Shown one piece after another: positions 17,222 through 39,799 of a stretch of 64,000 nucleotides of DNA. The DNA comes from Blautia sp. (GTDB taxonomy: Bacteria > Bacillota > Clostridia > Lachnospirales > Lachnospiraceae). Under the pieces are notes generated by a model. The model saw only the letters and a program-made list of their open reading frames with translations, was not told the DNA's origin and ran no database searches. Positions within the stretch are counted from its first letter, which is position 1. Every line of letters begins with the position of its first letter. Location of the stretch: positions 1 through 64,000 of the forward strand of contig JAFWGA010000029.1 in assembly GCA_017515325.1 (NCBI GenBank). The letters are read 5' to 3'. A program made the position numbers and the translations under genes.

Positions 17222-17352
17222 GCCGTGGGCAAGGATATATAGTCTTGCAAAATCCTTTACTGATGTGATATCATAAACTATAGCCATATCTTGAAGAGTA
17301 TCGGTATAGCATCAGAAATTTGCCGTTACTTTTTAGCAGGGAGGGATGGAAA

Positions 17353-19638
17353 ATGATAAAAAGGAGCATGCTGTGGTTGTTGATTTTTTTACTTGGCCTT
17401 GGCTGCACCCAGGTTTGGGCACAGGAAGGGGCAGAAGCACTTGTCAGCGGAGACTATCAGTATGAGCTGATGGAGGACGGGACGGCAAGAATCATAAGGT
17501 ATATGGGAAACGAATCCGTAATGGCAGTGCCTGCTTACCTGGATGAAGCAGAGGTTACGGTGATCGGGGCAAACGCTTTCAGTGAGTGCGGCAGTCTGAC
17601 CAATGTCACTCTTCCGGATGGCGTTACCTCTATTGAAGAAGGGGCTTTCAGCGACTGCGGAAGCCTGAACGGTATTATTCTTCCCGCGAAGCTTGCTTCG
17701 ATTGGCTTGGGCGCCTTTGATGCCTGTGTCGGCTTAACCAAAATTTCCTTTCCGGATAACACGATTATGATGGAGGGGAATCCTTTCACCACCTGTGAAA
17801 TGCTCAAGGAGATAAAGGTATCTTCGACCAACCCCAGCCTGGAGGTCATCGGCGGGGTGCTGTTCCAGAAAAAAGACCATCGGCTGATCTGCTATCCGTC
17901 CACCTTGACGGCTGAAGCCTATGTTGTGCCCACGGGGGTTGAAAGCATAGGGACGGGTGCCTTTTATCACAACCGATATTTGACGGATCTTACTCTTCCC
18001 GATACGGTCACGGAGATCGGAGATTATGCATTCAGCAACTGCGGCAGTCTGGCCAGGATTTCTCTCTCGGGATTGATCAAGGTGATAGGCATGGAGGCTT
18101 TCAGTGAATGTGTGAGTCTTTCCGCTGTTTCTATCCCGGAGGGAGTTACGGAAATTGAGACGGGGACTTTTCTCAGCTGCAACAGTCTGAGCGACGTCCG
18201 GCTTCCCAAAGGACTCAAATCCATTGGGGAGAGGGCATTTTGCTGGTGCAGTGGCCTGCGGGGCATTACGTTGCCTGACAGTGTCTCTTTCATCGGGGAA
18301 GGAGCCTTCAGCGGCTGCAACAGGTTGTCGGAGATCACTTTGCCTGAACAGATCGTCTCTGTGGAAAAGGACACTTTTTACGGCTGCAGCAGCCTGGAAA
18401 AGGTCGGATTGCCGGCAACGGTGACTTCCATAGGAAGTGGTTCTTTCTATAACTGTGACAGCCTGGTGGGGATCAGCCTGCCCGCGACGTTAACAGTTAT
18501 CGGCGGGGAAGCCTTCGGGGGCTGTGACAGTCTGACTGCCGTCGTATTGCCGCAAACGATTACCGGGATGGATGGGAATCCTTTCTCCGGCTGTATCAAG
18601 CTGAAGAGTATCAGCGTGTCTCCGGACAGTCCTTACCTGGCTACGATAGACGGAGTTCTGTTTTGCAAGGAGGACAAACGGCTGATCTGCTATCCTCCTG
18701 CCTTGGGTGCACAGGAATACATAGTGCCTGACGGAATAAAAAAGATCGGCAACGGAGCCTTTATGAACTGCGTCAAGCTCAGGAACATAGTGCTCCCTGA
18801 CAGTCTTACCGAGATTGGGAAGGATGCCTTCAGCTGGTGTATCGCTTTGGCCTCTGCAAATCTGCCGGAGGGTCTGGAAGTTCTTGGCCAGGGGGCTTTC
18901 AGCAGATGCGGGTCTATCCATAGCATATCTGTTCCGGAAGGGATTACGCAGATAGAGGATCTGGTATTTGGCTGGTGCGATAAGCTTTCCGACATTGCAC
19001 TTCCGTCAGGTATTGTTTCCATTGGGGCAAATGCCTTCAGCGGCTGCACCAGTCTGACTGAGTTTGTGGTTCCGGAAAAGGTTTCCTCGATTGGGGACGG
19101 AGCCTTCAGTAACTGCACCAGACTGGCTTCCGTTATCATTCCTGAAGGTGTCGCTGATCTGGGAGATGAGGTTTTTCTACACTGTATCAGCCTGACAGAC
19201 CTTGCCTTCCCGGCCAGCATTACCAGCATCGGCAGAGAAGCTTTCAATGGCTGTGCGAAGCTGGAAATGGTTACTCTGCCGGCAGGACTTACTGCGATTG
19301 CGGACGGTTTGTTTACGGGCTGCAGGAGCCTTGTTTCTGTAAGCATTCCGGCCAGCGTCACACAGATCGGAGACAATGCCTTTTACCAGTGCAGAAGTCT
19401 GACAGCTGTTTCGGTGCCGGAAGGGACCATTTCCATCGGAGAAAGCGCTTTTTGCAACTGTAATGCTCTGACCAGCCTCAGCCTTCCCCACAGCCTTTCG
19501 GCAATTGGAGGCCGGGCTTTTGCAGGCTGCGATAAGCTGACAGTCACGGTGACGGAAGACAGCTTTGCCCGTCAGTATTGTATTGATGAAGGGCTGAACT
19601 TCATGTATAAGCACTCCCTGGACTGGCTGACTAAGTGA
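17353..19638 (+). CDS. Secreted BspA-like leucine-rich repeat protein (LRR_5 type)
   Basis: 761-aa protein. A signal peptide (MIKRSMLWLLIFLLGLGCTQ, end near VWA-QE) is followed by a short lead-in and then more than twenty copies of a repeat of about 23 residues with consensus LTxVxLPxGVTSIGxxAFxxCxS, the BspA/TpLRR pattern. The array ends in an FARQYCIDEGLNFMY cap and no sortase or membrane anchor is present, so the protein is either released or held non-covalently. BspA-type proteins bind host or food matrix proteins and polysaccharides; the ligand here is unknown. Two blocks with LLFQKKDHRLICYP / LFCKEDKRLICYP suggest internal duplication of a larger unit. Start 17353 follows GGGAGGGATGG. 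Confidence 0.92.
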   Translation: MIKRSMLWLLIFLLGLGCTQVWAQEGAEALVSGDYQYELMEDGTARIIRYMGNESVMAVPAYLDEAEVTVIGANAFSECGSLTNVTLPDGVTSIEEGAFSDCGSLNGIILPAKLASIGLGAFDACVGLTKISFPDNTIMMEGNPFTTCEMLKEIKVSSTNPSLEVIGGVLFQKKDHRLICYPSTLTAEAYVVPTGVESIGTGAFYHNRYLTDLTLPDTVTEIGDYAFSNCGSLARISLSGLIKVIGMEAFSECVSLSAVSIPEGVTEIETGTFLSCNSLSDVRLPKGLKSIGERAFCWCSGLRGITLPDSVSFIGEGAFSGCNRLSEITLPEQIVSVEKDTFYGCSSLEKVGLPATVTSIGSGSFYNCDSLVGISLPATLTVIGGEAFGGCDSLTAVVLPQTITGMDGNPFSGCIKLKSISVSPDSPYLATIDGVLFCKEDKRLICYPPALGAQEYIVPDGIKKIGNGAFMNCVKLRNIVLPDSLTEIGKDAFSWCIALASANLPEGLEVLGQGAFSRCGSIHSISVPEGITQIEDLVFGWCDKLSDIALPSGIVSIGANAFSGCTSLTEFVVPEKVSSIGDGAFSNCTRLASVIIPEGVADLGDEVFLHCISLTDLAFPASITSIGREAFNGCAKLEMVTLPAGLTAIADGLFTGCRSLVSVSIPASVTQIGDNAFYQCRSLTAVSVPEGTISIGESAFCNCNALTSLSLPHSLSAIGGRAFAGCDKLTVTVTEDSFARQYCIDEGLNFMYKHSLDWLTK

Positions 19639-21592: not shown

Positions 21593-21623
21593 GACCGGCA
21601 GCTTCTTCCAGATGCTGCCGGTC
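21593..21623 (-). terminator. Putative terminator of the riboswitch-controlled operon
   Basis: A perfect 10-bp stem (GACCGGCAGC / GCTGCCGGTC) with 11-nt loop, 37 nt after the ATPase stop codon; on the minus strand it is followed by TTTGTCGTTG, a weak U-tract. Confidence 0.6.
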
Positions 21624-21659: not shown

Positions 21660-23573
21660 TTACAGGTTCTTTACATACAGACAGCGTATGGCGTTCAATA
21701 CCGCGAGAATCATCACGCCCACGTCGGCGATGATGGCCACCCACATGTTGGCAAAGCCCAGTGCGCCCAGCACCAGGCATACGGCCTTCACGATCAACGC
21801 AAAGGCGATGTTCTGCTTCACGATATGCAGGCACTTGCGTGAAATCTTGATTGCCTTGGCGATCTTTAATGGGTCGTCGTCCATCAATACAACGTCAGCG
21901 GCCTCGATGGCGGCATCGCTGCCCAGTGCACCCATAGCGATGCCTATGTCAGCCCGGGAAAGCACCGGCGCGTCGTTGATGCCGTCGCCAACGAAGGCCA
22001 GCCGCTTCCTGCCCGTGCATTCCTTCAGCAACTCTTCCACACACGCCACCTTGTCCTGAGGCAGCAGCTCAGCGCGGTAGTCGGTCAGTCCGACTTCCTT
22101 TGCGACAGCCTCCGCCACGGATTTCGTGTCACCGGTCAACATGACTGTCTTCTCGATACCTGCTTTTTTGAGCTGCGCCATGGCCTCTTTGGAATGATCC
22201 TTCAGTTCGTCAGCAATAACGATATGGCCCGCATATTCCCCCGCTACGGCCATATGAATGATTGTACCCACATGATGGCAGTGATGGAAGGGGATACCCA
22301 GTCTGTTCATCAGTTTTTCATTGCCCACCGCGACGTCAATGCCGTCCACCTTGGCGATGATACCGTGACCGCTGATCTCTTCAAGATCGGTCACCCGCTT
22401 GGGATCGATTCGCCTGCCGTAGGCCTTTTGCAGGCTCAGGCTGATGGGATGGGAGGAGTGGTACTCCGCCAGCGCGGCGTACTCCAGCAGCTTCGCCTCG
22501 TCAATGGGGCTGTGGTGTACCGCCGTAACCTCGAAGCTGCCCTTTGTGATGGTACCGGTCTTGTCAAAGGCGATGGTGGTAACTTCCGAAAGCGTCTCAA
22601 GGTAGTTGGAGCCCTTGACCAGTATACCTTGATTGGACGCCCCGCCGATGCCCGCAAAAAAGCTCAGCGGTATCGAAATCACAACGGCGCAGGGACAGCT
22701 GATGACCAGAAACGTGCAGGCGCGCAAGATCCAGTCCCGCCACAGCGCACCAACGGAAGCATAGCCTGCCATGCCAATCTTCGTGATCAAGATGAACAAG
22801 GGAGGAATCAGCGCCAGTGCCAACGCCGCATAACAAACAATCGGCGTATAGACGTGAGCAAACTTGGAGATGAAGTTTTCCGATTTCGACTTGCGCGAGG
22901 CGGCATTCTCCACTAAATCCAGTATCTTGGAAGCGGTGGATTCGTCGAACTCGGTGGTTGTGCGAACCTTCAATACACCGGACATGTTGATACTGCCGGA
23001 GAGTACGTCGTCGTCCACGGTGACCTCCCGGGGCTTCGATTCACCGGTCAACGCGGCGGTATTCAGAGCGGAGGAGCCCTCGACCACAATACCGTCAATC
23101 GGCACCTTCTCGCCGGGCTGCACCACGATAATGGAACCTTCCTCCACTTCGTCAGGATCGACGCGTTCAAGCGTGCCGTCCTCCGATTCAATGTTGGCAT
23201 AGTCCGGGCGGATATCCATCAGCTCGGAGATGTTGCGGCGACTTTTTCCAACGGCATAGCTTTGGAACAGCTCGCCCACCTGATACAGCAGCATAACCGC
23301 GACGCCCTCACCGTATTCGCCCAAGGCGATCGCACCCACGGTCGCCACGGTCATCAAGAAGCACTCATCGAATGGCTTTTTGTTTTTAATGCCGAGCAAG
23401 GCCTTGCGCAGTATATCGTGCCCCACGGTCAGATAGGGGATCAGGAACAGCAGGATTATTGCCCATTGCGGTATATTGACATGTACATAGTCCTCTGAAA
23501 TCAGGTACAGGGGCACGAAAAACACGGCAGCAACGATGATTCGAATCAGCAGATTCTTTTGTTTCCTGTTCAC
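21660..23573 (-). CDS. P1B-type metal-transporting ATPase (Zn/Cd/Pb export type), copy 1
   Basis: 637-aa ATP-driven metal exporter in the cytoplasmic membrane. Motifs: TGES actuator loop (LTGESKPREV), metal-site SCPCAVVISIP in the sixth helix, phosphorylation site DKTGTITKG, SSHPIS, TGDTKSVAEAVA, and GDGINDAPVLSRADIGIAMG. The last helix ADVGVMILAVLNAIR carries the Asp-x-Gly typical of P1B-2 (ZntA/CadA) pumps. There is no N-terminal metal-binding domain; a separate HMA gene just upstream supplies one. The start is GTG 23573 after AGAAAGGG. It is the last gene of the minus-strand operon. A paralogue with the same architecture lies at 31279-33183. Confidence 0.94.
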   Translation of the reverse strand: MNRKQKNLLIRIIVAAVFFVPLYLISEDYVHVNIPQWAIILLFLIPYLTVGHDILRKALLGIKNKKPFDECFLMTVATVGAIALGEYGEGVAVMLLYQVGELFQSYAVGKSRRNISELMDIRPDYANIESEDGTLERVDPDEVEEGSIIVVQPGEKVPIDGIVVEGSSALNTAALTGESKPREVTVDDDVLSGSINMSGVLKVRTTTEFDESTASKILDLVENAASRKSKSENFISKFAHVYTPIVCYAALALALIPPLFILITKIGMAGYASVGALWRDWILRACTFLVISCPCAVVISIPLSFFAGIGGASNQGILVKGSNYLETLSEVTTIAFDKTGTITKGSFEVTAVHHSPIDEAKLLEYAALAEYHSSHPISLSLQKAYGRRIDPKRVTDLEEISGHGIIAKVDGIDVAVGNEKLMNRLGIPFHHCHHVGTIIHMAVAGEYAGHIVIADELKDHSKEAMAQLKKAGIEKTVMLTGDTKSVAEAVAKEVGLTDYRAELLPQDKVACVEELLKECTGRKRLAFVGDGINDAPVLSRADIGIAMGALGSDAAIEAADVVLMDDDPLKIAKAIKISRKCLHIVKQNIAFALIVKAVCLVLGALGFANMWVAIIADVGVMILAVLNAIRCLYVKNL

Positions 23574-23611
23574 ACCGTCACACCCTTTCTTATTGTATTA
23601 TGAAGAAAAGA

Positions 23612-23653
23612 ATACTCATTAACGAAACTGCAGGCAATTTCGTTAATGAGTAT
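23612..23653 (-). promoter_or_regulatory. 16-bp inverted repeat between HMA and ATPase genes
   Basis: ATACTCATTAACGAAA (23612-23627) and its exact reverse complement (23638-23653) around a 10-nt loop, 5 nt after the HMA stop. On the minus strand it is followed by CTTTTCTTC. It may be a partial terminator or processing hairpin that lowers ATPase expression, or an operator; the sequence does not decide. Confidence 0.55.
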
Positions 23654-23658
23654 AAGTA

Positions 23659-23877
23659 TCAAAGGTAGATTTCGCAGTCGTCCTCGACCTTCTTGCAGTT
23701 GGCGCGCACCTGCTGCATCACGTCTGCCGGATCGGCACCCTCTTCAAATTCCACCTTCATCTTGAGAGTCATGAAGCTCACGGTGCAATCCTTGACGCCC
23801 GCAGTCTTCTTGGCGGCGTCTTCCATCAGGTTCGCGCAATTCGCGCAGTCCACATCAATCTTGTAAGTCTTCTTCAT
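23659..23877 (-). CDS. Stand-alone HMA heavy-metal-binding protein, copy 1
   Basis: 72-aa protein with a single heavy-metal-associated (ferredoxin-like) domain. Metal-site CxxC motif in DCANCANLMEDAAKK (Cys13-Ala-Asn-Cys16 region); a third cysteine near 63 and one near 69 (CKKVEDDCEIYL) are unusual additions. It probably delivers metal to, or acts as the detached N-terminal domain of, the P1B ATPase encoded next. Start 23877 follows AAAAGGACAAGACC; the longer open frame overlaps the upstream gene and is not used. It is very similar to the protein at 31001-31222. Confidence 0.9.
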   Translation of the reverse strand: MKKTYKIDVDCANCANLMEDAAKKTAGVKDCTVSFMTLKMKVEFEEGADPADVMQQVRANCKKVEDDCEIYL

Positions 23878-23890
23878 GGTCTTGTCCTTT

Positions 23891-25069
23891 TCATTTGTCA
23901 TTCGCCAGGTTATCTCTTCTCGCCCGGACGGCCCGATACGAGCAGGCCTCTGCCAGCGCACAGAGTCCGTTCAGATTGGCGTCCGGATTGAAAATTTTCG
24001 TTACATGAGAAAGGTCGTCAAAGTTGTAGGCGTTCATGGCCGCACTGGCCGACAGGGCGTATTTTTCGTTGTAGTCCTCGGCGCTGTCGGACACCCAGAA
24101 TCCCTGAGTGACCTGTATCGCCTTGCCGTTATCCCGGAATTCCTCCGCATACCCCGTAACCGCATTCAGCATCAACGCAAACGCCGGACCGATCATGGAA
24201 TTGTACTTGCCCACTATAAATTGAAGCACACCGTCCCTGAACAGCTGCAGATTGCGTGTATTATAACTGTCCACCACACCCAGAGGCGTCCTGCCGATGA
24301 CCGTAATCATGTCCTCCGGCGGTAATACAGACAGCACGGCGTCAAAGCTCTCCTCGGCAAAGGCCTCCTTTGCCGAATTGAGGTATTCGTCGAACACCAC
24401 ATAGCCAGGGCAGATGGTGACACTCACGCGGTCCGTCTGAACGGTGACAGGTTTTTCTGTTCTCGCCAGTTCCTCGCGCGAAGCGGAAAAACTCGCTCCA
24501 TAAGCGGTGGAAATGGCATCGAGTATTCCGAGTGTACGCTGATAGTGCATTTCGTTCCCCAGTGGCGCGCCGCCGCTGAGCAGGAAGTAGCGATTCCCAA
24601 CCTTCTCCTTGATGAAGAATCGCGCCATATCCGCGCCGGCCTGGAACTCAAAGGGCTGTCCGGGGCCGAACATGCCCAGAAACCAGGGGTTCTCCTCCAC
24701 GGCCTCGAAATCTTCGGCGGAAACCGTGCCGGAGGCCAGCAAGTAGTAAACCTGATTCTTCTCGCACAGGGCCACCTCTGACCTGAGATCGTAAGTCAGG
24801 AAAGACATGAAGCCCTCCACGCCCTCGTCACAGGCAGTCTGTATAAAGGCCAGTTCCTCCTCCGGAGAGGAAATGGAGCCGGAATAGACGAATTCTACCA
24901 TCTCGAAGTTATCTTCAATGTAGCCCTTGAGGTATTCCTTGAAGCCCAGCACCTCCTCGTCGGCGATATTGTAGACGATGACGCCGATCTTGTGGATTCC
25001 CTCTTCAGCCAGCGTAGGGCAGTACAGCCCGATGACCAGGATAAGCACAAATGCAATCCACTTCTTCAT
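23891..25069 (-). CDS. Secreted type-I periplasmic-binding-fold protein, B12-riboswitch operon
   Basis: 392-aa exported protein (signal peptide MKKWIAFVLILVIGLYCPTL, end near LAE). The mature part begins IHKIGVIVYNIADEEVLGFKEYLKG, the usual first strand and helix of type-I periplasmic binding proteins (sugar or BMP lipoprotein-like), and continues with alternating beta-alpha units. I cannot place it in a named family. It is translationally coupled to the ATPase gene upstream (ATGA, 25066-25069) with AAAGGAGGGAGACGC in front. Its presence beside a class-C (Dpp/Nik) binding protein in one operon is unusual; it may be an accessory receptor for a metal complex or corrinoid, which is an inference. 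Confidence 0.75.
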   Translation of the reverse strand: MKKWIAFVLILVIGLYCPTLAEEGIHKIGVIVYNIADEEVLGFKEYLKGYIEDNFEMVEFVYSGSISSPEEELAFIQTACDEGVEGFMSFLTYDLRSEVALCEKNQVYYLLASGTVSAEDFEAVEENPWFLGMFGPGQPFEFQAGADMARFFIKEKVGNRYFLLSGGAPLGNEMHYQRTLGILDAISTAYGASFSASREELARTEKPVTVQTDRVSVTICPGYVVFDEYLNSAKEAFAEESFDAVLSVLPPEDMITVIGRTPLGVVDSYNTRNLQLFRDGVLQFIVGKYNSMIGPAFALMLNAVTGYAEEFRDNGKAIQVTQGFWVSDSAEDYNEKYALSASAAMNAYNFDDLSHVTKIFNPDANLNGLCALAEACSYRAVRARRDNLANDK

Positions 25070-26031
25070 GCGTCTCCCTCCTTTGCAAAGAGGTGGCAGG
25101 CAACCTCATGATCCGGTTCGATTTCCGTCAATGTCGGTCGTTTCTCCCGGCAAAGCGCCATGCACCGGTCACACCGGTCCTGGAAGGGGCAGCCTGTGGG
25201 CAGGTCCAGCGGACTTGGCGGCTCTCCCTTGATGGGCTCGATCTTTTTGGAAAAGTCCATCTTTGTGTCGAACACGGCGTTCAGCAGTGCCTTCGAATAC
25301 GGGTGGCAGCACACCTCGGCCAGCTTGTCCCCTGGCATGACCTCCACGATGTTGCCCAGATACATCACTGCAATTTGGTGAGAAAAGGATTGTATGAAGC
25401 CAAGGTTGTGGCAGATAAAGCCGATGGTGATGTTCTTCTCTCGCTGCAGCTTTGTGATGAGTTCGATCACCGTCTCCTGTACCGACACATCCAGCGCGCT
25501 GGTAGCCTCGTCCATCACGATGATTTCCGGCTCCAAAGCCAGCGCCCGGGCTATGGCAACCCTCTGCCGCTGACCTCCGGACATGTTATGCGGGAATCGG
25601 TCGGCGAATTCGCCGGGCAGCTCGACCATCGCAAGCAATTCACGGGCTTTGGCATTTTTTTCAGAGCGTTTAATCCTTCCGTAATTCAGCAGTGGTTCAC
25701 AGACGATGTCACGTATCTTCATCTTGGGATTGAAGGAGGTGGCGGGATCCTGGAAAACCATCTGAATATGCTGACGCATGTCGTGAAGCTCCCGCCCCTT
25801 CAGTCTGGTGATGTCCTTTCCCCTGTAGATGATCTTGCCCTCGCTGGGCGTATCCAGCCACACCAGGAACCGCATGAAGGTGCTCTTGCCACAGCCGGAT
25901 TCACCCACCAGACCCAGGGTTTTGCCCTTGTAGAACTTCAGGTTGATATCATTGCAGGCGACCAGCTCCTTCCCGCCTGGCGCGGGAAAGCGCCGGGTGA
26001 CATGCCTTGCTTCAAGCAGTAATTCAGACAT
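25066..26031 (-). CDS. Peptide/nickel-type ABC transporter ATP-binding protein (DppF/NikE-like)
   Basis: 321-aa ABC ATPase. Walker A GESGCGKST (about 43-51), Q-loop VFQDP, signature MSGGQRQRVAIARAL, Walker B IIVMDEATSALD, H-loop ICHNLG. The C-terminal region has the oligopeptide/dipeptide-transporter extension, with GCPFQDRCDRCMALC (about 281-295), which in related ATPases can hold an Fe-S cluster. It overlaps the previous ATPase gene by 8 nt and starts after GGGAGGGAAGCGCT. With the partner ATPase it would power the two permeases encoded upstream. Confidence 0.93.
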   Translation of the reverse strand: MSELLLEARHVTRRFPAPGGKELVACNDINLKFYKGKTLGLVGESGCGKSTFMRFLVWLDTPSEGKIIYRGKDITRLKGRELHDMRQHIQMVFQDPATSFNPKMKIRDIVCEPLLNYGRIKRSEKNAKARELLAMVELPGEFADRFPHNMSGGQRQRVAIARALALEPEIIVMDEATSALDVSVQETVIELITKLQREKNITIGFICHNLGFIQSFSHQIAVMYLGNIVEVMPGDKLAEVCCHPYSKALLNAVFDTKMDFSKKIEPIKGEPPSPLDLPTGCPFQDRCDRCMALCREKRPTLTEIEPDHEVACHLFAKEGDA

Positions 26032-26812
26032 AGCGCTTCCCTCCCAACGACGGCACCGCCCCGATCAGCTTTCTCGTGTAGGCGTTCGTCGATTCGTTCA
26101 GTATGTATTCACGCGAGCCTTTATCTTCGATGTGCCCGTCTTTCATAACCACGACCACATTCGCCATGTAGGCCGCGACGCCGATGTCATGGGTGACGAC
26201 GATGATGGACGTGCCGTACTCGTCACGAAGCTCCATCATCTGGCGCACGATCTGCGCCTGGGTGGTTACATCCAGCGCGCTGGTGGGTTCATCAGCCAGC
26301 AACAGCTTCGGCTGGTAGGTCATGCCCATGGCGATGCCCACACGCTGGCGCATGCCGCCGGAGAGCTGGAACGGATAGGAGCGCATGATGCGGTCCGGAT
26401 CGGGCAGACGCATGCGCCCGAGCATCTCGGCGCCCTTCTTCCAGGCATCCTGCTTCGAGACGGATTCATGAGTGCGGATGTACTCCACAAAGCTCTTGCC
26501 TATCAGTCGGGTCTGATTCATCATCGCGCCGGAATCCTGGAATATCATGGAAATATCGTGGCCTCGCAAAGCGCGCCATTCGCGCTTGCTCAGAGTGAGC
26601 AGGCTCCTGCCGTCGTAGACGATGTCGCCCGCCGAAACTCTGCCGCCGCCGGGCAGCAGTCCCAACACGGCACGAATGACGGTGGTTTTCCCGCTGCCGC
26701 TCTCGCCTACCACAGAACAAATCTGCCCCTGTTCGAGCTCGATGGAACAGCCCTGTACCGTCGCCCTCCTGCCATAGGAGACGTCGATGTTTTTAATTTC
26801 CAACAATGCCAC
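26024..26812 (-). CDS. Peptide/nickel-type ABC transporter ATP-binding protein (DppD/NikD-like)
   Basis: 262-aa ABC ATPase with Walker A GESGSGKTT (about 36-44), MIFQDSGAMMNQT Q-loop, signature LSGGMRQRVGIAMGM, Walker B LLLADEPTSALD and H-loop VVTHDIG. It is shorter than DppF and lacks the C-terminal cysteine cluster, which fits the NikD-type partner. The start is GTG 26812, six bases from the permease stop, with GAGGTGA as ribosome-binding site. Confidence 0.92.
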   Translation of the reverse strand: MALLEIKNIDVSYGRRATVQGCSIELEQGQICSVVGESGSGKTTVIRAVLGLLPGGGRVSAGDIVYDGRSLLTLSKREWRALRGHDISMIFQDSGAMMNQTRLIGKSFVEYIRTHESVSKQDAWKKGAEMLGRMRLPDPDRIMRSYPFQLSGGMRQRVGIAMGMTYQPKLLLADEPTSALDVTTQAQIVRQMMELRDEYGTSIIVVTHDIGVAAYMANVVVVMKDGHIEDKGSREYILNESTNAYTRKLIGAVPSLGGKRYV

Positions 26813-26818
26813 GCTCCG

Positions 26819-27664
26819 TCACCTCCCCTCATTGGACCGAGGGTCCAGTATGTCGCGCAGGCCGTCTCCCAGCATGTTGAACACGACGACGGTAACGAAG
26901 ATCGCCAGGCCGGGATAGATCATCAGCCACGGGGCGGACTGCATGAAATTGCGACCCTCATTCAACATGGAGCCCCACTCCGGATTCGGCGGCTGAGCGC
27001 CGAATCCCAGGAAGGACAGCGCAGCCAGCTCCATCATCATGCCGCCGATGTCGGTGGCGGCAGTGATGACCAGCGTGGTGATCGTGTTGGGCAGCATGTA
27101 TTTCCAAAGCATGGAGGGCGTCCTGGAACCGGTAACCATGGCCGCGGCCACGAAATCCGTGTGGCGTATCTTCATGACAAGGCTGCGGGCCAGACGGGCG
27201 TACTTCGGCCAGCTCACCACGGCAATGGCGATGATGGCGTTTCGCGTGCTGGCACCAAGGATACCGGCTACGGCAATGGCCAGGACCAGGCCTGGAAATG
27301 CGATCATCATATCCGCCAGGCGCATGATCACGGTATCCACCCAACCGCCAAAGTAACCGGCCAGGATACCCAGGAAGGTGCCGATCACGAAGATCACACC
27401 CACCAGGATAAAGGTGGAGGACAGCGACGTTCGTGCGCCATACAGCACCCGCACGAAAATATCTCTCCCCATTTTGTCAGTACCGAAGGGATGCTCGGCG
27501 CAGGGCGGTTTGATGGAATCCTTCAGGCTGCCCTTGATGGGACTGACATCGCCGCAGAGCTGCGGTGCGAATATCGCTGCAAGCACAATCAGCAGAGCAA
27601 GCACGGCAAAGACGACAAAGACGGGGTATTTTCTGATAAAGCTCTTCTTTTCCATGTCACTCAC
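26819..27664 (-). CDS. Peptide/nickel-type ABC transporter permease (DppC/NikC-like)
   Basis: 281-aa membrane protein with an N-terminal helix (about 15-36) and five further helices. KMGRDIFVRVLYGARTSL is the typical DppC lead-in, and EYILPNTI-type EAA loop appears as KYMLPNTITTLVI (about 188-200). Start GTG 27664 overlaps the TGA of the upstream permease (GTGA), so the two are coupled; a possible internal ATG start lies three codons on. Confidence 0.92.
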   Translation of the reverse strand: MSDMEKKSFIRKYPVFVVFAVLALLIVLAAIFAPQLCGDVSPIKGSLKDSIKPPCAEHPFGTDKMGRDIFVRVLYGARTSLSSTFILVGVIFVIGTFLGILAGYFGGWVDTVIMRLADMMIAFPGLVLAIAVAGILGASTRNAIIAIAVVSWPKYARLARSLVMKIRHTDFVAAAMVTGSRTPSMLWKYMLPNTITTLVITAATDIGGMMMELAALSFLGFGAQPPNPEWGSMLNEGRNFMQSAPWLMIYPGLAIFVTVVVFNMLGDGLRDILDPRSNEGR

Positions 27665-28599
27665 CGCCTCAGCCGCATACGCGGATCAACATAATTATAG
27701 GAAACGTCCACCAGCAGGTTGATGACCATGTAGATTATCGCCACCCACAGGACATAACCCTGGATAAGGTAGTAGTCGTAGGAAGTGATGGCCTGCACAG
27801 CCAGGTTGCCCATGCCGGGATAGGAGAAAATGACTTCCACGACACTGGTACCGCCCAGCAGCGAACCCACGGACAGACCCAGCATCGTGATCAGCGGCAG
27901 CAGTGAATTGGGGAACACATTCCCCCACAGTATCTTCCATTCCGCCACACCCCGCGCCCTTGCACCGATAACGTAATCGGAATGAAGCTCTTCCAGTACC
28001 GCCGTACGCACCTGCCGGGTGTACTTGGCAGACATAGCCACCGCCAGCGTCGCCGCGGGCAGAATCATATCCTTGAAGGTTCCGCCGGAGGACACCACGG
28101 GCAGCAGTCGAAGCTGCACACAGAACAGCAGGATCAGAAGCAATCCTACCCAGAAATTGGGAATGGACACCCCGAAAAAGGTAATGGCCCGTACAAGATA
28201 ATCAATGGGTTTGTCCTGATATACCGCTGACAGTACACCCAGCGGCACCGCCGCGATCAGCATCAGCACCATGCTGAACAGTGCCAGCTTCAGTGTCGGC
28301 CACAATCGTGCGGCCAGCAGTGTCACCACCGGCTTTTGCAGCGCGAAGGAGGTACCGAAGTCTCCGCGGAGACAGTTTCCCAGCCAGCGGAAATACTGAA
28401 CCATAAACGGATCATTCAGGCCCATCTCTTCTCTCAGTACCGCCACCTGCGCCTCGTCAGGCATTAAGCCTTGGGCGAGATACATATTCCGAACCGGATC
28501 GCCCGGCGATAAATAGGTCAGCAAGAATGTGATGATGCTGATGCCGATCAATACGACAAGCATCTGCGCCAGTCTTGACAATATCTGTTTCCTGCCCAA
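27661..28599 (-). CDS. Peptide/nickel-type ABC transporter permease (DppB/NikB-like)
   Basis: 312-aa six-helix membrane protein of the DppB group: RLAQMLVVLIGISIITFLLTYLSPGDP at the N-terminus, GDFGTSFALQKPV, ARARGVAEWKILWGNVFPNSLLPLI (EAA loop) and FSYPGMGNLAVQAI. The open frame begins at TTG 28617, but that codon is inside the ribosome-binding site (GAGAGGAG); TTG 28599, eight bases further, is the better start. It lies 83 nt downstream of the binding protein gene. Confidence 0.9.
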   Translation of the reverse strand: MGRKQILSRLAQMLVVLIGISIITFLLTYLSPGDPVRNMYLAQGLMPDEAQVAVLREEMGLNDPFMVQYFRWLGNCLRGDFGTSFALQKPVVTLLAARLWPTLKLALFSMVLMLIAAVPLGVLSAVYQDKPIDYLVRAITFFGVSIPNFWVGLLLILLFCVQLRLLPVVSSGGTFKDMILPAATLAVAMSAKYTRQVRTAVLEELHSDYVIGARARGVAEWKILWGNVFPNSLLPLITMLGLSVGSLLGGTSVVEVIFSYPGMGNLAVQAITSYDYYLIQGYVLWVAIIYMVINLLVDVSYNYVDPRMRLRR

Positions 28600-28682
28600 G
28601 TAACTCGCTCCTCTCAATCGTGATAGTCACGCGGAAAGAGAACCACCTGTGGGCAGTGCCCTTTCCGCGGAACAATGTGATA

Positions 28683-30239
28683 TTATTCCGCGGGGATAAT
28701 CTCCGTCGACAGCCAGTAGTAGTCGGCGGTGTGGATGTGGGCGTAGCCCACGTTCTTGGAATAAGCCATGGAGCTGTTGTAGTAACCGTCGATGATCACG
28801 GCTGCGTCGTCGATCAGAATCTGCTGCATTTCCTGCAGAAGCGCGGCGCGTCCTTCAGTGTCCGGGGTATCCAGGAACTTCTCGTAGGCAGCGTCGTAGG
28901 CGTCGCTCTGGTAGCCGCAATAGTTGGATCCGCTCTTGCTGTACCAGTTGGCCATGTACTCGGTAGGATCGCCGTTGCCCACGGTAGTCCAGTTGTTGTT
29001 GTCGAGGTCATAGTTGAAGGTGACCAGGTCGTTCCAGCAGTCATCGGAGGAGCCGTAGGCGGGGGTAACTCCGATGCCCAGCTCGGCCATATACATGGTG
29101 TTGGCGTCAGAGAAGTCGTTCAGCAGACGATTCTCATAGGAGGAGTAGCGCAGGAAGATGGGCTGGCCGTCCAGCTCGCGCACGCCGTCGCCGTCGCTGT
29201 CCACGATGCCTGCTTCGTCCAGCATGGCTGCTGCGGCGTCGGGATCATAGGCGTAGGGATTGTTCAGATTCTCGTAGCCGTATGCCAGCGTGCTGGGCAG
29301 CACGGAGAAGCCCGCGGTGTACAGACCGCCAATGGTGTTGGATTCGCAGATGGTCTCGTCATCGATGGACATGACGATGGCTTTGCGAAGGGTGTCGTTG
29401 CCCAGGATGCCGTTAAAGTTGATCCAGCTGAAGCCGCAGCGCACGCCGGAAGCGATGTCTACGGTGTAATTGTCGTCTGCCTGGAGGCGCTGCAGGTCGG
29501 AGACGTTGGTGATGTTCTCCACCAGATCCACCTGACCGGCCATCAGTGCATTGGCCTTCGCGGAGGCGTCGCCCATGAAGATGATCTCCACCTTGTCGTA
29601 GGGCACCTCGCCGTCCCAGTAGAGGGGATTCTTGACCATGGTGTAACCGACCAGATCAGCGTGGCTTTCCACCATATAGGGACCTGTGCCAATGATGCCG
29701 TGGTCAAAATCTGTGGTGTCAGCCACGTCGATGATCGCCATGACCGGGTAGGCCAGATTGCCGGGCAGGTTGTAATCCGGCTTGGGCAGCGAAATGGTGA
29801 TGGTGTTTGCGGCATCGTCCGCGACGACCTCGGCCTCAAAGGCCAGATAGTTCTGCGGATTGGAGGAACCGTTGGGACCCTGCTCGCGCACGCTGTCCAG
29901 GGATTCCTTGACCTTGCTGGCGGTCATATCCGTGCCGTTGGAGAACTTCACGCCGTCACGGATCTTGATGGTCCAGACGGTGGAGTCCTCATTGGCTTCC
30001 CAGCTCTCGGCCAGCCAGGGCTCGATTTCCATGTTGTCGTTGAATTTGAACAGGCCCTCACTGATACCGTAGCGCATGCAGTTCCAGGCGCAGTTGGTCT
30101 GGGCGGCGGGATTGATCAGGCCGTCGGAATACATCTGGCAGCCGAAGTTCAACACCTTCTCCTCCGCGTAAGCGTTAGTGGCGAAGCTGGGCAGCACCAG
30201 CATCAGGCCGACAAGGGTAGCCAACATTCTTCTTTTCAT
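28683..30239 (-). CDS. Solute-binding protein of a Dpp/Nik-type ABC transporter (SBP_bac_5)
   Basis: 518-aa extracytoplasmic binding protein of cluster C (peptide, nickel and related substrates). Sec signal peptide (MKRRMLATLVGLMLVLPSFA, end near AYA-EE), no lipobox. Family features: EPWLAESWEANEDSTVWTIKIRDGVKFSNGTDM (about 73-105) and GTGPYMVESHADLVGYTMVKNPLYWDG (about 177-203). Tyrosine- and aspartate-rich C-terminal half. Start 30239 follows GAGAGGAGAATCCCTG; the frame is open upstream through the leader terminator but that part is untranslated leader. First gene of the operon under the cobalamin riboswitch, so cobalt, a metal chelate or a corrinoid are more likely ligands than peptides; this is inferred from the regulation only. 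Confidence 0.93.
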   Translation of the reverse strand: MKRRMLATLVGLMLVLPSFATNAYAEEKVLNFGCQMYSDGLINPAAQTNCAWNCMRYGISEGLFKFNDNMEIEPWLAESWEANEDSTVWTIKIRDGVKFSNGTDMTASKVKESLDSVREQGPNGSSNPQNYLAFEAEVVADDAANTITISLPKPDYNLPGNLAYPVMAIIDVADTTDFDHGIIGTGPYMVESHADLVGYTMVKNPLYWDGEVPYDKVEIIFMGDASAKANALMAGQVDLVENITNVSDLQRLQADDNYTVDIASGVRCGFSWINFNGILGNDTLRKAIVMSIDDETICESNTIGGLYTAGFSVLPSTLAYGYENLNNPYAYDPDAAAAMLDEAGIVDSDGDGVRELDGQPIFLRYSSYENRLLNDFSDANTMYMAELGIGVTPAYGSSDDCWNDLVTFNYDLDNNNWTTVGNGDPTEYMANWYSKSGSNYCGYQSDAYDAAYEKFLDTPDTEGRAALLQEMQQILIDDAAVIIDGYYNSSMAYSKNVGYAHIHTADYYWLSTEIIPAE

Positions 30240-30352
30240 CAGGGATTCTCCTCTCTTGTTTGTATAATTTATGGCCTCAAAGACCATATGAACAGAATAA
30301 TGGGGTAATACTTCCGAATCCGCCACGGCGCAGGCGATACGATATGCAGGCA

Positions 30353-30400
30353 CAAAAAAAACGATCTGCTCCGCGACATGCGGCGGCAGACCGTTTTTTT
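30353..30400 (-). terminator. Intrinsic terminator in the riboswitch leader
   Basis: On the minus strand a stem of 9 + 4 bp (ACGGUCUGC / GCAGAUCGU outer, CCGC / GCGG inner, loop AUGUC) ends in eight U residues (30361-30354). It stands between the cobalamin aptamer and the first gene, the expected place of the expression platform: ligand binding would favour termination. Confidence 0.82.
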
Positions 30401-30454
30401 GCAGCCAAAACAAAATCATTCGTGCTTCAAAAGTCCGTGAAGCGAATGTACTTT

Positions 30455-30640
30455 AACACAGGCAAGTCTTCTGGCTTATGGATCATCGCTTAAGCCGTCT
30501 TCCCAGTCCCGGCGCTGCCGGTTTGATGACCAGTGACACAATGGCTTTCGCTCTCCAAATACAGCGGCGGCTCCGTGCGGGATTTTCACCCGCTTCCTTT
30601 TTCAGCTTCCCCCGTAAGGGAAGTCACCTGTATTTTTTAT
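30455..30640 (-). promoter_or_regulatory. Cobalamin riboswitch (B12 element)
   Basis: Reading the minus strand, the conserved pieces occur in order: ACAGGTGACTTCCCTT near the 5' side (about 30634), AAGCGGGTGAAAATCCCGCA (about 30596-30577), CGGAGCCGCCGCTGT, then the B12 box AAGCCAGAAGACTTGCCTGT (30478-30459). These match the cobalamin aptamer; the B12 box differs from consensus at one base. It sits behind a promoter (30654-30682) and before a terminator, so it should switch off the ABC-metal operon when cobalamin is plentiful. Confidence 0.93.
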
Positions 30641-30653
30641 CGGTTGTAACAGG

Positions 30654-30682
30654 ATGTTAGCATATGTGAACAACAAAGTCAA
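30654..30682 (-). promoter_or_regulatory. Putative promoter of the riboswitch-controlled operon
   Basis: On the minus strand TTGACT (30682-30677), 17-bp spacer, TAACAT (30659-30654). The start near 30647 would place the aptamer at the very 5' end of the transcript and give a leader of about 410 nt. Confidence 0.6.
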
Positions 30683-31000: not shown

Positions 31001-31222
31001 ATGAAAAAAACCTACAAGATTGATGTTGACTGTGCCAACTGTGCGAATCTGATGGAGGAAGCCGCAAAGAAAACAGAAGGGGTGAAGGACTGCTCTGTCA
31101 GCTTCATGACCCTGAAGATGAAGGTGGAATTTGAGGACGGCGCCGATGTGGCTGCTGTGATGAAAAAGGTTCGCGATAACTGTAAAAAGGTTGAAGACGA
31201 CTGCGAGATCTTCCTGGATTGA
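31001..31222 (+). CDS. Stand-alone HMA heavy-metal-binding protein, copy 2
   Basis: 73-aa single HMA domain, near-identical in layout to the protein at 23659-23877: CxxC site in DCANCANLMEEAAKK, conserved FMTLKMKVEFE, and the extra C-terminal cysteines (CKKVEDDCEIFLD). It likely hands metal to the ATPase encoded 56 nt downstream. Start 31001 follows AGAGAAAGGGGAAAAAT; the longer upstream frame is non-coding. Confidence 0.92.
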   Translation: MKKTYKIDVDCANCANLMEEAAKKTEGVKDCSVSFMTLKMKVEFEDGADVAAVMKKVRDNCKKVEDDCEIFLD

Positions 31223-31278: not shown

Positions 31279-33183
31279 ATGAATAAAAAACAGAAAAATC
31301 TGCTGGCCAGGATTATTGTGGCGGCCATATTCTTCGTGCCGCTTTATCTGATTTCTGAGGAACTGATCTCCGTCAAGATTCCCAGACCGGCTTTGTTTAT
31401 CCTCTTTCTGGTGCCGTATCTGCTGGTCGGCTACGATATTCTGCGCAAGGCAGCCCTGGGTATCAGGAACCGGAAGGTTTTCGACGAAAACTTTCTGATG
31501 ACGGTTGCCACCATCGGTGCTATTGTCCTGGGGGAATACGGTGAAGGCGTCGCCGTTATGCTTTTGTATCAGGTAGGAGAATTTTTCCAGAGCTATGCGG
31601 TGGGAAAGAGCCGCAGGAATATCAGCGAACTGATGGACATCCGCCCGGATTACGCCAATATCGAAAGGGATGGTGCCATTGAGCAGGTGGATCCGGATGA
31701 GGTGGAAACCGGCAGTATCATTGTCGTTCAGCCGGGAGAGAAGATCCCCATCGACGGGGTGGTGGTAGAGGGAAGCTCTGCCCTGAATACCAGTGCTCTG
31801 ACCGGCGAGAGTAAGCCCAGAGAGGTTACGGTGGACGATGAGGTTCTCAGCGGCAGCATCAACATGAGCGGCGTGCTCAAGGTGGAGACCACGGCGGAGT
31901 TTGATGAATCCACAGCCTCCAGGATTCTTGACCTGGTGGAGAATGCAGCATCACGGAAATCAAAATCCGAGAACTTTATTTCCAAATTTGCCCGAATCTA
32001 TACACCCTTTGTCTGCTATGCGGCTTTGGCTCTGGCTCTTATTCCTCCCATCTACTTTATGGCGACAGGCATGGGGAATTACGCCTCTATGGGTCAGCTT
32101 TGGCGGGACTGGATCCTGAGAGCATGCACCTTCCTGGTCATCAGCTGCCCCTGCGCGGTCGTGATCAGTATTCCGCTGAGCTTTTTTGCCGGCCTGGGCG
32201 GAGCCTCAAACCAGGGTATCCTGATCAAGGGCTCCAATTATCTGGAAACCCTTTCTGAGGTGACCACGATTGCCTTTGACAAGACCGGTACCATCACCAA
32301 GGGTAATTTCGCGGTAACGGATGTTCATCACAATCCCATCGAGGCGAAAAAGGTTCTGGAATATGCTGCCCTGGCAGAATGCAATTCCTCCCATCCCATC
32401 AGTCTCAGTCTGAAGCAGGCTTATGGGAAGAAAATCGATCTGTCCCGGGTGACGGATGTCCAGGAGATCAGCGGTCACGGAATAGAGGCCAGGGTGGACG
32501 GCATTCCTGTGGCGGTGGGCAATGAAAAGCTGATGACAAAGATCGGGGTCAAGTCCCTGCATTGCCATCATGTGGGGACTATCATTCATGTGGCCATTAA
32601 CGGCGAGTATGCCGGGCATATCGTGATCACGGATGAGCTGAAGGAGCATTCCCGGGAAGCGATGGCCGAGCTGAAAAAGGCCGGTGTTGAGAGGACGGTC
32701 ATGCTGACCGGAGACGCCGCATCTGTTGCCGAGAAGGTTGCCCAGGAGGTTGGACTGACAGAATATCGGGCCGAGCTTTTGCCGGCAGATAAGGTAGCCT
32801 GCGTGGAAGAGCTTCTGAAGGAGTGTAAGGGGAACAAACGTCTTGCCTTTGTGGGAGACGGCATCAATGACGCACCCGTTCTTTCCCGGGCGGATATCGG
32901 TATTGCCATGGGGGCGCTGGGCTCTGATGCGGCCATTGAGGCGGCGGACATTGTCCTGATGGATGATGATCCTCTGAAGATCTCCAAGGCGATAAAGATC
33001 TCCCGCAAATGCCTGCGCATTGTAAAGCAGAATATTGTTTTTGCCCTGGTGATAAAGGCTGTCTGCCTGATCCTGGGCGCAGTAGGCCTGGCCAACATGT
33101 GGGTCGCCATCATTGCCGATGTCGGCGTTATGATCCTGGCTGTACTTAACGCGATTCGCTGCCTGTTCGTCAAAAACCTGTAA
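31279..33183 (+). CDS. P1B-type metal-transporting ATPase (Zn/Cd/Pb export type), copy 2
   Basis: 634-aa paralogue of the ATPase at 21660-23573, collinear along its whole length with only scattered differences. Motifs: LTGESKPREV, SCPCAVVISIP, DKTGTITKG, SSHPIS, LTGDAASVAEKVA, GDGINDAPVLSRADIGIAMG, ADVGVMILAVLNAIR (P1B-2 type). It also lacks an N-terminal HMA domain. Both copies carry a His/Cys cluster in the nucleotide-binding domain (here LHCHHVGTIIH). Start 31279 follows AGGGGAGAAGGCT. It is co-directional with the HMA gene and with a MATE exporter 15 nt downstream. Confidence 0.95.
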   Translation: MNKKQKNLLARIIVAAIFFVPLYLISEELISVKIPRPALFILFLVPYLLVGYDILRKAALGIRNRKVFDENFLMTVATIGAIVLGEYGEGVAVMLLYQVGEFFQSYAVGKSRRNISELMDIRPDYANIERDGAIEQVDPDEVETGSIIVVQPGEKIPIDGVVVEGSSALNTSALTGESKPREVTVDDEVLSGSINMSGVLKVETTAEFDESTASRILDLVENAASRKSKSENFISKFARIYTPFVCYAALALALIPPIYFMATGMGNYASMGQLWRDWILRACTFLVISCPCAVVISIPLSFFAGLGGASNQGILIKGSNYLETLSEVTTIAFDKTGTITKGNFAVTDVHHNPIEAKKVLEYAALAECNSSHPISLSLKQAYGKKIDLSRVTDVQEISGHGIEARVDGIPVAVGNEKLMTKIGVKSLHCHHVGTIIHVAINGEYAGHIVITDELKEHSREAMAELKKAGVERTVMLTGDAASVAEKVAQEVGLTEYRAELLPADKVACVEELLKECKGNKRLAFVGDGINDAPVLSRADIGIAMGALGSDAAIEAADIVLMDDDPLKISKAIKISRKCLRIVKQNIVFALVIKAVCLILGAVGLANMWVAIIADVGVMILAVLNAIRCLFVKNL

Positions 33184-33197
33184 AAGCAGAGGGGGCT

Positions 33198-34547
33198 ATG
33201 AATAAAAAACGTACAATCAATATGACAGAGGGCGGAATTGTCCTACCGCTTATTCTGTTTATCCTGCCCATGATCGGCAGCAGTATTTTTCAGCAGCTCT
33301 ACAACACGGTGGATTTTCTTTTTGTGGGAAACCTTCTGAACAAGACTTCTGCGGCAGCGGTAGGGGCCAGCAGTACGCTGATCACCTGCTGTATCGGTCT
33401 TTTTTCCGGTATTGCCGTCGGAACCAGCGTTGTCAGCGGTCAGGCGATCGGAGCCGGTGATGATGACAGGGCGGATCAGGCTCTTCACACCTCCGTATGC
33501 TTTGGCCTGGCCGGAGGCCTTCTGCTGATGGTATTGGGGATTTTGTTCGCCCCAGGCATCTTAAGGCTTTTGAATACGCCGGAGACTGCGATGCCGGAGG
33601 CAATTGCCTATATCCGGATCTATCTTCTTAGCCTGCCCATGCTGATCTTTTACAATATGTGCGCAGGAGAACTGCGTGCCCTGGGGGATTCTCAGACGCC
33701 CTTTTATATCCTGGTCATCTGCGGCTTTGTCAATGTGGCTGCCGATGCCTTCTTTATGATCGTGATTCCCCTCGGCGTCGTCGGTGTTGCCCTTGCGACG
33801 GCTGTTTCCCAGGGACTTTCCGCCTTACTGGTGGCCAGGGCTTTGATGAAGGCAAACCTGCCCGTAAGGCTTTCTGTCCGGAAGCTGAGAATTGAGTGGA
33901 ATACCCTGCAGCAGATCCTGAAAATCGGACTGCCCTCCGGCATACAGACGGTGATCATCACCTTCTCCAACGTGATGGTACAGTATCACATCAATGCCTT
34001 TGGAGAGACGGCGGTTGCCGCCTTTGCCACCTACTATAAGGTTGAGAATTTCATCTATCTGCCGATCATGGCTTTTGGGCAGGCGGCGACAACCTTTGCT
34101 GCCCAGAATACAGGCGCAGGGAAATTCAGAAGAATCAGGACAGGAACCCTGCTGAATGTTCTGATCAGTGGAGTGGTGACCTTCGGCATTGCCCGGTTGA
34201 TTCTTTGTTTCCCACGCACTGTCTTTACCTGGTTCATGAAGGATCAGGATGTGGTTACAAGCACGATGCAGCTGGCTCTGGTTTCTTTCCCCTTCTACTG
34301 GATCTATCCCATCATGGAGGTGATCGGAGGAGCCTTAAGGGGGATGAGCTATGCGCTGAGCTCTATGGTGATTATCGTTTCCAACCTGTGTGTCCTGCGG
34401 GTTCTGCTGCTGGTTGTATTCTCCCGGACGATCCATACTTTGCCGTCGCTGGCGGCGGTATACCCAATTACCTGGGCAGCAGCTTCGATCTGCTTTGTGA
34501 TTGTATTTATCCATGTCATGAGGCGGAAGCTGGGCAAGGCCCTCTGA
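33198..34547 (+). CDS. MATE family efflux transporter
   Basis: 449-aa membrane protein with about 12 helices in two homologous halves, as in MATE (multi-antimicrobial extrusion) cation-driven exporters. Typical: LPMIGSSIFQQLYNTVDFLFVGNLL (about 18-42, with the N-terminal pattern of the DinF/NorM group), VGASSTLITCCIGLFSGIAVGTSVVSGQAIGAGD, and YPITWAAASICFV at the C-terminal end. Start 33198 follows GAGGGGGCT and lies 15 nt after the ATPase, so it belongs to the metal operon; whether it shares a role in detoxification is unknown. Confidence 0.93.
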   Translation: MNKKRTINMTEGGIVLPLILFILPMIGSSIFQQLYNTVDFLFVGNLLNKTSAAAVGASSTLITCCIGLFSGIAVGTSVVSGQAIGAGDDDRADQALHTSVCFGLAGGLLLMVLGILFAPGILRLLNTPETAMPEAIAYIRIYLLSLPMLIFYNMCAGELRALGDSQTPFYILVICGFVNVAADAFFMIVIPLGVVGVALATAVSQGLSALLVARALMKANLPVRLSVRKLRIEWNTLQQILKIGLPSGIQTVIITFSNVMVQYHINAFGETAVAAFATYYKVENFIYLPIMAFGQAATTFAAQNTGAGKFRRIRTGTLLNVLISGVVTFGIARLILCFPRTVFTWFMKDQDVVTSTMQLALVSFPFYWIYPIMEVIGGALRGMSYALSSMVIIVSNLCVLRVLLLVVFSRTIHTLPSLAAVYPITWAAASICFVIVFIHVMRRKLGKAL

Positions 34548-36981: not shown

Positions 36982-37039
36982 TAAACTCTTTTCCGCCTGG
37001 CACCTCGCACTTTTCTGCGAGGCGCCGGCTGTTCTTCCT

Positions 37040-37954: not shown

Positions 37955-38081
37955 GGCAGGCACCTTTTCCTGAGATATAGTATGCGCACAAACTTACTGC
38001 GGAAGCATGCCGCCTGCAGCGGCATGCCCGCCTTTGACTGGCGACAGTGTAACACAAAGCTTTGGATTTAGAAAGAGGTAT

Positions 38082-38100
38082 TTTAGATAAATCTAAAGTA
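38082..38100. promoter_or_regulatory. Putative ArsR-type operator, distal
   Basis: TTTAGAT-AA-ATCTAAA (38082-38097) is a 7-2-7 inverted repeat. Bases 38087-38100 (ATAAATCTAAAGTA) are the exact reverse complement of 38191-38204. Confidence 0.6.
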
Positions 38101-38190
38101 AAATCCCATGTTAGTGCAATATGTATAAATCCGACAGATAAATTTGTGAAAAACGACAAAATTTAAAATGAACTATAGAAAAAGCTAAAA

Positions 38191-38204
38191 TACTTTAGAT
38201 TTAT
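38191..38204. promoter_or_regulatory. Putative ArsR-type operator, promoter-proximal
   Basis: TACTTTAGATTTAT, exact inverse of 38087-38100 and one base upstream of the -35 box. Centre-to-centre distance to the distal copy is 104 bp, close to ten helical turns. Confidence 0.6.
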
Positions 38205-38205
38205 G

Positions 38206-38234
38206 TTGACAAATGAAAGGGAATGGAATATAGT
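38206..38234 (+). promoter_or_regulatory. Promoter of the arabino-oligosaccharide ABC operon
   Basis: TTGACA (38206-38211), 17-bp spacer, TATAGT (38229-38234): a near-consensus sigma-A promoter. Its strength suggests that control is by repression through the flanking TTTAGAT sites. Confidence 0.8.
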
Positions 38235-39776: not shown

Positions 39777-39799
39777 TCAGAGAAAGAGGAGTAGCTAAG

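Follow-up and report, generated by a model that had tools for sequence, protein, structure and literature searches.

A B12-riboswitch operon in the window

We analysed a 64,000-nt stretch of Blautia sp. DNA (contig JAFWGA010000029.1 of assembly GCA_017515325.1, positions 1 to 64,000; hereafter the window). On its minus strand, a cobalamin (B12) riboswitch aptamer and a leader terminator are followed by eight co-directional genes, which combine an ATP-binding cassette (ABC) importer with a second binding protein, a small HMA protein and a metal ATPase. A covariance-model search placed the aptamer at 30444..30646 and matched it to Rfam family RF00174 over the full length of the model (1-189 of 189, not truncated) with 111.2 bits and an E value of 5.1e-27, compared to a gathering score of 31.5. 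An earlier note, made from the letters of the DNA alone, had claimed a full B12 aptamer at this site, and the search bears this out; it found no second RF00174 match in the 64-kb window. Our own covariance model R1 gave 139.3 bits, the window aptamer being among the sequences from which R1 was built. The leader terminator that had been claimed is present as a hairpin with a tail of eight U at 30355..30400 (-; leader z -2.9), and is the putative expression platform. For the claimed promoter the outcome was mixed. A promoter-like TTGACT-17-TAACAT with TG is found at 30654..30682 (-), but it is a consensus match only and weak on its own, as the region contains 11 promoter-like sites versus 8.0 expected.

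Frames and family matches confirmed the eight co-directional genes of the earlier note, with SBP2 as the one gene that lacks a family match. All are on the minus strand, as are the elements between them. The first gene, SBP5 (28683..30239), encodes a NikA-like family 5 binding protein of 518 amino acids (aa). It is followed by a stem-loop (28623..28676; 76% complementary) and by two permease genes, PermB (27661..28599, with start TTG at 28599) and PermC (26819..27664). Both permeases exceed the NCBIfam cut-offs for the nickel-type models Opp2B (PermB, 384.2 vs 350, with its frame taken from 28617) and Opp2C (PermC, 330.9 vs 300). Family matches identify the next two genes as the ABC ATPases AtpD (26024..26812) and AtpF (25066..26031), the latter with an oligo_HPY domain; they score below the NikD and NikE cut-offs (219.8 vs 318.7 and 244 vs 332.55, respectively). 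Then come SBP2 (23891..25069), encoding the second binding protein, HMA1 (23659..23877), encoding a 72-aa HMA metallochaperone-like protein (PF00403, 30.9 vs 24.8 bits), a hairpin of 19 pairs with a U-rich tail (23612..23653), and PATP1 (21660..23573), encoding a metal ATPase of 637 aa. An inverted repeat at 21593..21623 is a candidate operon end. The spacing between successive genes is 83 nt (SBP5-PermB), -4 (PermB-PermC), 6 (PermC-AtpD), -8 (AtpD-AtpF), -4 (AtpF-SBP2), 13 (SBP2-HMA) and 85 nt (HMA-ATPase); the gaps of 83 and 85 nt given in the earlier note were reproduced by script.

PATP1 matched the cadmium-family model TIGR01512 with 501.5 (cut-off 313.5) and contains CPC in transmembrane segment 6 and D-x-G in transmembrane segment 8, which we take to be motifs of the P1B-2 (Zn/Cd/Pb) class. 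Score and motifs thus fit the P1B-2 class proposed previously. The P1B-4 (cobalt) ATPases have the motifs SPC and HEG(S/G)T, according to the available part of PMC7689651; PATP1 has CPC and ADVGV in their place.

SBP2 is predicted to have a type I periplasmic-binding fold. As a single sequence it gave no Pfam match even at E values up to 10, no NCBIfam match, and only weak matches in the PDB (best E 0.21). Distant relatives, 27-33% identical, occur at loci L017-L022, where no riboswitch match was found; at least one of them (L018) sits in a sugar-type ABC operon, as judged by eye.

Recurrence in relatives

We scanned named genomes for loci encoding an SBP5 relative, kept the best 80 of 213 as named loci, and mapped the cluster in these by tblastn with the window and neighbour proteins. 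A same-strand run was defined by gaps under 700 nt between recognised features. The 80 loci were picked as best SBP5 matches and are related to each other; counts are therefore not independent events. The whole importer was present in one run at 75 of the 80 loci, and at the other five the contig edge was reached first. SBP2 was part of the run at 39 loci (39 of 60 informative), HMA at 22 (22 of 52) and the P1B ATPase at 27 (27 of 55). Hence, the grouping of importer and P1B pump noted in the window is a recurrent arrangement. Furthermore, the runs included a MATE exporter at 40 loci (40 of 55 informative) and an AstE/AspA-type deacylase at 33 (33 of 54). The deacylases matched PF24827 in the examples scanned; NCBIfam, applied to two of them, gave DoeB as sole match, far below its cut-off. 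The order SBP5-B-C-D-F-SBP2-HMA-P1B-MATE was found at nine loci (L068, L070, L077, L089, L098, L105, L109, L113, L114), with an ArsR gene inserted in L070. Cultured carriers of riboswitch and importer include Hominisplanchenecus faecis CLA-AA-H246 (L115) and Oliverpabstia intestinalis (L099). Among the cultured carriers seen, only Blautia schinkii MSK.6.26 and Blautia sp. MSJ-9 (L102, L104) had a P1B gene in the run, and there an ArsR gene also lies beside it.

Riboswitches were located with R1, which was built from six aptamers, five from the importer group and one (L023) from outside it. Of the 80 loci, 50 were included in the whole-genome RF00174 search, and 27 distinct named loci were given to Rfam. 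The earlier note had proposed looking for the same gene order behind RF00174 in other Clostridia, and it recurs: R1 placed a same-strand B12 riboswitch ahead of SBP5 at 66 of the 80 importer loci, within the run in 64. Rfam agreed for 20 of these 66, which were all 20 that it was given (L068, L070, L077, L089, L096, L108, L111, L078, L080, L094, L098, L109, L113, L102, L104, L106, L140, L143, L145, L146). Six riboswitch-less loci end too early to judge (L092, L101, L110, L121, L125, L135). Other genes of the cluster may also stand directly behind a riboswitch. This was observed for the MATE gene in L106, L140, L143, L145 and L146, where the sites scored 51-60 bits (cut-off 31.5), lower than the sites before SBP5 in the same loci; the exception is L145, in which a single riboswitch precedes MATE and then the importer. 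It was also observed for SBP2 in the Blautia pair L102 and L104, and for the P1B ATPase in the near-twins L108 and L111, which count as one event. No other gene stands between riboswitch and ATPase in these twins; the distance is 268 and 247 nt, respectively, and the ATPase has a long His-rich start. A scan of L108 showed that it is HMA-fused there.

In total, 22 of the 27 loci with P1B in the run have a same-strand riboswitch upstream, 20 of them in the run and the other two being L108 and L111. The remaining five comprise two at a contig edge (L110, L135) and three without riboswitch (L086, L105, L144). In contrast, none of the 28 unlinked P1B loci had a riboswitch within up to 1.5 kb on each side.

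Some relatives showed further features near the importer. In L132 (2587-5067, -) an 826-aa protein has an AstE/AspA deacylase fused between two S-adenosylmethionine (SAM) methyltransferases, in L077 (6397-8191) a deacylase of this type adjoins a SAM methyltransferase, and in L016 (3602-4387) a similar methyltransferase was seen by eye near SBP2, hinting at small-molecule processing. L132 also has a divergent B12-riboswitch match (R1, 75 bits); the genes behind it (5491-8905, -) encode a pyruvate-formate-lyase-like glycyl radical enzyme, which may be an isozyme independent of B12, and its likely activase. P1B ATPases in or near the cluster of L081, L108, L111, L134, L136, L138 and L142 are rich in His at the start of the frame, where the first 150 residues include 18 to 58.

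Proposed cobalt import and the attached pump

CbiD is a marker of anaerobic corrin synthesis. It was found in 52 of the 57 carrier genomes, counted by handle (49 of 54 minus three duplicates), versus 80 of the 143 non-carriers in the family sample (p 1.6e-6, uncorrected for kinship). These numbers indicate that carriers mostly make corrins and need cobalt. The B12 riboswitch of L077 is immediately preceded by a NiCo riboswitch (RF02683, 41.1 vs 37 bits) with a cation-efflux gene (8292-9317); no other NiCo site turned up in the 27 Rfam-tested named loci or in nine further sources. Moreover, the other two RF00174 sites found in the window's genome precede FecCD-type transporters. One of these operons includes a Peripla_BP_2 protein and is BtuFCD-like. 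In the other (L023; G000:C3, 12522-8506 of the locus, -), genes for a FecCD permease and an ABC ATPase are joined by one for a CbiK-family protein (PF06180, 285.5 bits). By eye, this protein begins with what resembles a signal peptide and has a long stretch rich in Glu and Ala; it is perhaps an exported chelatase-like binding protein. Corrinoid uptake thus has another candidate in these FecCD-type operons. The available part of PMC7689651 describes cobalt import as B12-controlled and efflux as generally following cobalt itself, and the chelatase CbiK as possibly open to mismetalation.

Our preferred reading, to which we give somewhat less than an even chance, is that B12 represses an importer of cobalt or a cobalt chelate together with a zinc/cadmium-type pump, which would rid the cell of competing metal. 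The locus is consistent, as far as its sequence goes, with such a cargo and with a pump clearing metals that enter alongside it. If adenosylcobalamin or a related corrinoid became scarce, the aptamer would be empty, the leader terminator would not form and the operon would be read; this OFF-switch behaviour is inferred. SBP5 with PermB/C-AtpD/F would then import cobalt, probably as a small-molecule chelate, and SBP2 would bind a second ligand, perhaps the chelator or the chelate. HMA1 would be made from the same RNA, as would the P1B-2 ATPase, though in an amount reduced by the hairpin. This ATPase would pump out zinc, cadmium or similar ions, which might come in together with the cargo or else fill the cobalt chelatase. 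In relatives, the MATE exporter and the AstE/AspA deacylase may export or hydrolyse the chelator. A bolder version, which we regard as unlikely, is a complete metal-exchange module, in which a B12-sensing RNA would direct cobalt-chelate import, a dedicated P1B-2 clade would expel zinc-like ions, MATE and AstE/AspA would recycle or cut a cobaltophore, and SBP2 would represent a new type I binding-protein family capturing the chelator.

Several observations weigh against the preferred reading. The P1B ATPase occurs in a minority of the runs, and eight loci with sufficient room have no riboswitch (L079, L083, L086, L088, L105, L117, L142, L144); seven of these were also empty by Rfam, and L083 by R1 only. 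The deacylase was not found in the window's genome, which is 87.7% complete. SBP5 scores far under the NikA equivalog cut-offs (Opp5A_nikA, 197.8 vs 600; nickel_nikA, 144.7 vs 393). In a pairwise alignment, its Gly438 aligned, in a low-confidence region, to E. coli NikA His416, presumably the His ligand position; the nearby Cys441 is conserved in 74 of 81 sequences. The structure that AlphaFold predicted for SBP5 was too poor to use (pLDDT 55.7). Among CbiD-positive carriers CbiM was absent in 27 of 49, versus 40 of 80 non-carriers (p 0.59), and the idea that the importer substitutes for CbiMNQO in carriers is therefore unsupported. The HMA-ATPase pair has an ArsR-type gene as its neighbour in six loci, on its own strand in L070, L096, L102 and L104 and on the opposite one in L089 and L094, which suggests metal control there. 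Finally, transcription may stop at the hairpin 5' of the window ATPase.

The last two observations also support an alternative in which HMA and ATPase would form a zinc/cadmium resistance unit of their own, placed downstream by chance, and the B12 switch would own the ABC genes (and SBP2) only. We consider this alternative improbable, though not negligible. HMA-P1B pairs are common in the family: 117 of 150 genomes have a P1B match at E <= 1e-150, and HMA lies upstream of 27 of the 28 unlinked ATPases. HMA is thus the ordinary partner of such ATPases, and we dropped the view that it is a special addition. The alternative is also favoured by L070, L089 and L096, where SBP2 and HMA lie 436 to 556 nt apart; the 13 nt between them in the window speak against it.

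The hairpin points in the same direction. The 89-nt stretch between HMA1 and PATP1 had a z of -5.5, and none of 200 shuffles was as stable. Terminator-like hairpins were found at 8 of 23 HMA-P1B junctions (21 loci plus both window pairs), compared to 1.6 expected from shuffles and to 2 of 27 unlinked junctions (p 0.03). The unlinked count leaves out L061, in which no HMA was found, and some of its start codons are rough. Of the promoter and terminator for a separate transcript of the HMA and ATPase genes, named by the earlier note as counter-evidence, one half was found, and for the ATPase only: the hairpin is there, a convincing promoter is not. Partial termination, giving more chaperone than pump, is the likeliest role of the hairpin; a separate ATPase transcript is a less likely one. 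The hairpin was also considered as a repeated element or regulon operator, which was dropped, as its exact pattern occurs at one genome site only.

The history of the ATPases argues against a chance neighbour. In a tree of 55 ATPases, 13 linked ones and both window copies formed one clade with 100/100 support and a long stem. The tree left out 8 of the 27 linked ATPases as partial or broken (L069, L072, L074, L091, L094, L116, L124, L147) and two distant neighbours (L085, L086). A dedicated, well-supported ATPase clade follows the operon across genera in this tree. L110, the Blautia pair L102/L104 and the distant group L108/L111/L135 branch elsewhere, and the label 'linked' needs five changes on the tree, four of them forced by starred branches. 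Recruitment of more than one P1B lineage favours a shared role rather than hitch-hiking, although the pumps of L102/L104, with ArsR adjacent, may be ordinary neighbours. In L108 and L111 the riboswitch is followed immediately by P1B, which likewise speaks against an independent unit. The second window copy belongs to a divergent gene group on the plus strand, with HMA2 (31001..31222; 86% identical to HMA1), PATP2 (31279..33183; 83% identical to PATP1 and in the same clade) and a MATE exporter (33198..34547) that is at most 68% identical to the MATE genes in the clusters of relatives.

Returning to the cargo, the importer of cobalt or cobalt chelate has a competitor that we judge about as doubtful as an independent resistance unit, namely an importer of corrinoids or corrin precursors (cobinamide, or a cobamide for remodelling). 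The deacylase would then be a remodelling amidohydrolase, and HMA and pump would handle released metals or merely adjoin. Corrinoid uptake is commonly under B12 riboswitches, the haem-binding relative HbpA is among the SBP5 matches, and 5 of the 57 carrier handles show no CbiD, although some of these genomes are incomplete. Yet CbiD is present in the large majority of carriers, the same genome has the Peripla_BP_2-FecCD-ATPase type of B12-riboswitch operon, the permeases exceed nickel-type cut-offs, and the recurrent P1B pump together with the NiCo riboswitch and cation-efflux gene of L077 point to free metal. An importer of peptides or N-acyl-amino acids, supplying methionine when B12-dependent methionine synthase fails, would fit SBP_bac_5, the Dpp-like ATPases and a deacylase freeing amino acids in the 33 runs that have one, but is very unlikely, as it leaves the recurrent zinc-type pump and MATE unexplained and conflicts with the nickel-type permease models.

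Comparison with known systems and significance

The earlier note called peptide/nickel-family importers under B12 control less usual. The linkage is real; such NikABCDE importers behind B12 riboswitches were, however, already predicted in C. tetani and D. hafniense (PMC2667541, available part). By their description, these share with the cobalt importer proposed here the Nik/Opp-type ABC class and predicted cobalt uptake. Unlike the clusters described here, the available part of this paper mentions no SBP2, HMA, P1B ATPase, MATE or deacylase. The importer half is thus a new member of a predicted kind, and the new part consists of the attached pump, chaperone, SBP2, MATE and deacylase. Other excerpts report 12 orthologue groups for cobalt transport in B12 regulons (PMC3766115), five B12-riboswitch operons with CbiMNQ(O) and FepBCD/BtuCDE-like transporters plus one more predicted ABC-type cobalt transporter (PMC4285132), B12 uptake by BtuFCD and CbrT (PMC6593275), and a CbiMNQO and a BtuCDF-like system under B12 riboswitches, with C. 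difficile CD0324-7 as CbiMNQO (PMC11477304). The energy-coupling factor (ECF) importer CbiMNQO shares B12-riboswitch-controlled cobalt uptake in Clostridia, but belongs to another transporter class and, in the available part of PMC11477304, comes without attached exporter. In the openly licensed literature, as available in part and without supplementary tables, we found no description of a B12 riboswitch with a P1B ATPase, MATE, AstE/AspA or SBP2-like gene.

Three further systems are similar in part. HMA plus CadA/ZntA-like P1B-2 pairs share the HMA-ATPase pair itself, but no B12 riboswitch was found near the 28 unlinked loci, and 13 operon copies form a clade of their own with both window copies. 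The staphylopine system Cnt combines an importer with an exporter for a metallophore, and shares with our cluster an Opp-family metal-chelate importer and a separate small-molecule exporter. In contrast to Cnt, the cluster has a MATE exporter and B12 control, and the Cnt models score below cut-off (CntA, 84.8 vs 800; CntC, 215.9 vs 440; CntF, 227.6 vs 385). NiCo riboswitches turn export on with metal. A NiCo riboswitch with a cation diffusion facilitator (CDF) gene adjoins the B12 operon in L077, whereas the cluster itself would place export under the B12 switch instead.

Zinc, nickel and copper bind most metal sites tighter than cobalt, following the Irving-Williams order (PMC7689651, available part), and cobalt delivery to the chelatase is for this reason an open metalation question. 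The recurrent grouping of a B12-switched importer with a zinc-type pump offers a concrete prediction on cobalt metalation. The shared grouping in relatives suggests that cells short of B12 may import cobalt while clearing competing metals. In the bolder version given above, the cell would meet the cobalt-metalation problem by regulated removal of competitors rather than through import of cobalt alone. In addition, the locus offers a candidate route of cobalt import to B12 makers that lack CbiM, and it names SBP2, MATE and the deacylase as B12-regulon partners that had not been placed.

A few minor observations concern the window as a whole. By eye, the binding proteins at 28683-30239, 23891-25069 and 38254-39660 seem to lack a lipobox Cys, which is odd for a Gram-positive; a lineage-wide loss of lipoprotein anchoring was unsupported, as LGT was found in 15 of 15 genomes tried, including the window's own. 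Positions 1-218 are the 3' end of a 23S rRNA gene (RF02541). Also by eye, 17320-19638 encodes a long secreted leucine-rich repeat protein that is BspA-like, and 36031-45601 contains arabinan-type glycosidase and sugar ABC transporter genes with helix-turn-helix (HTH) regulators nearby.

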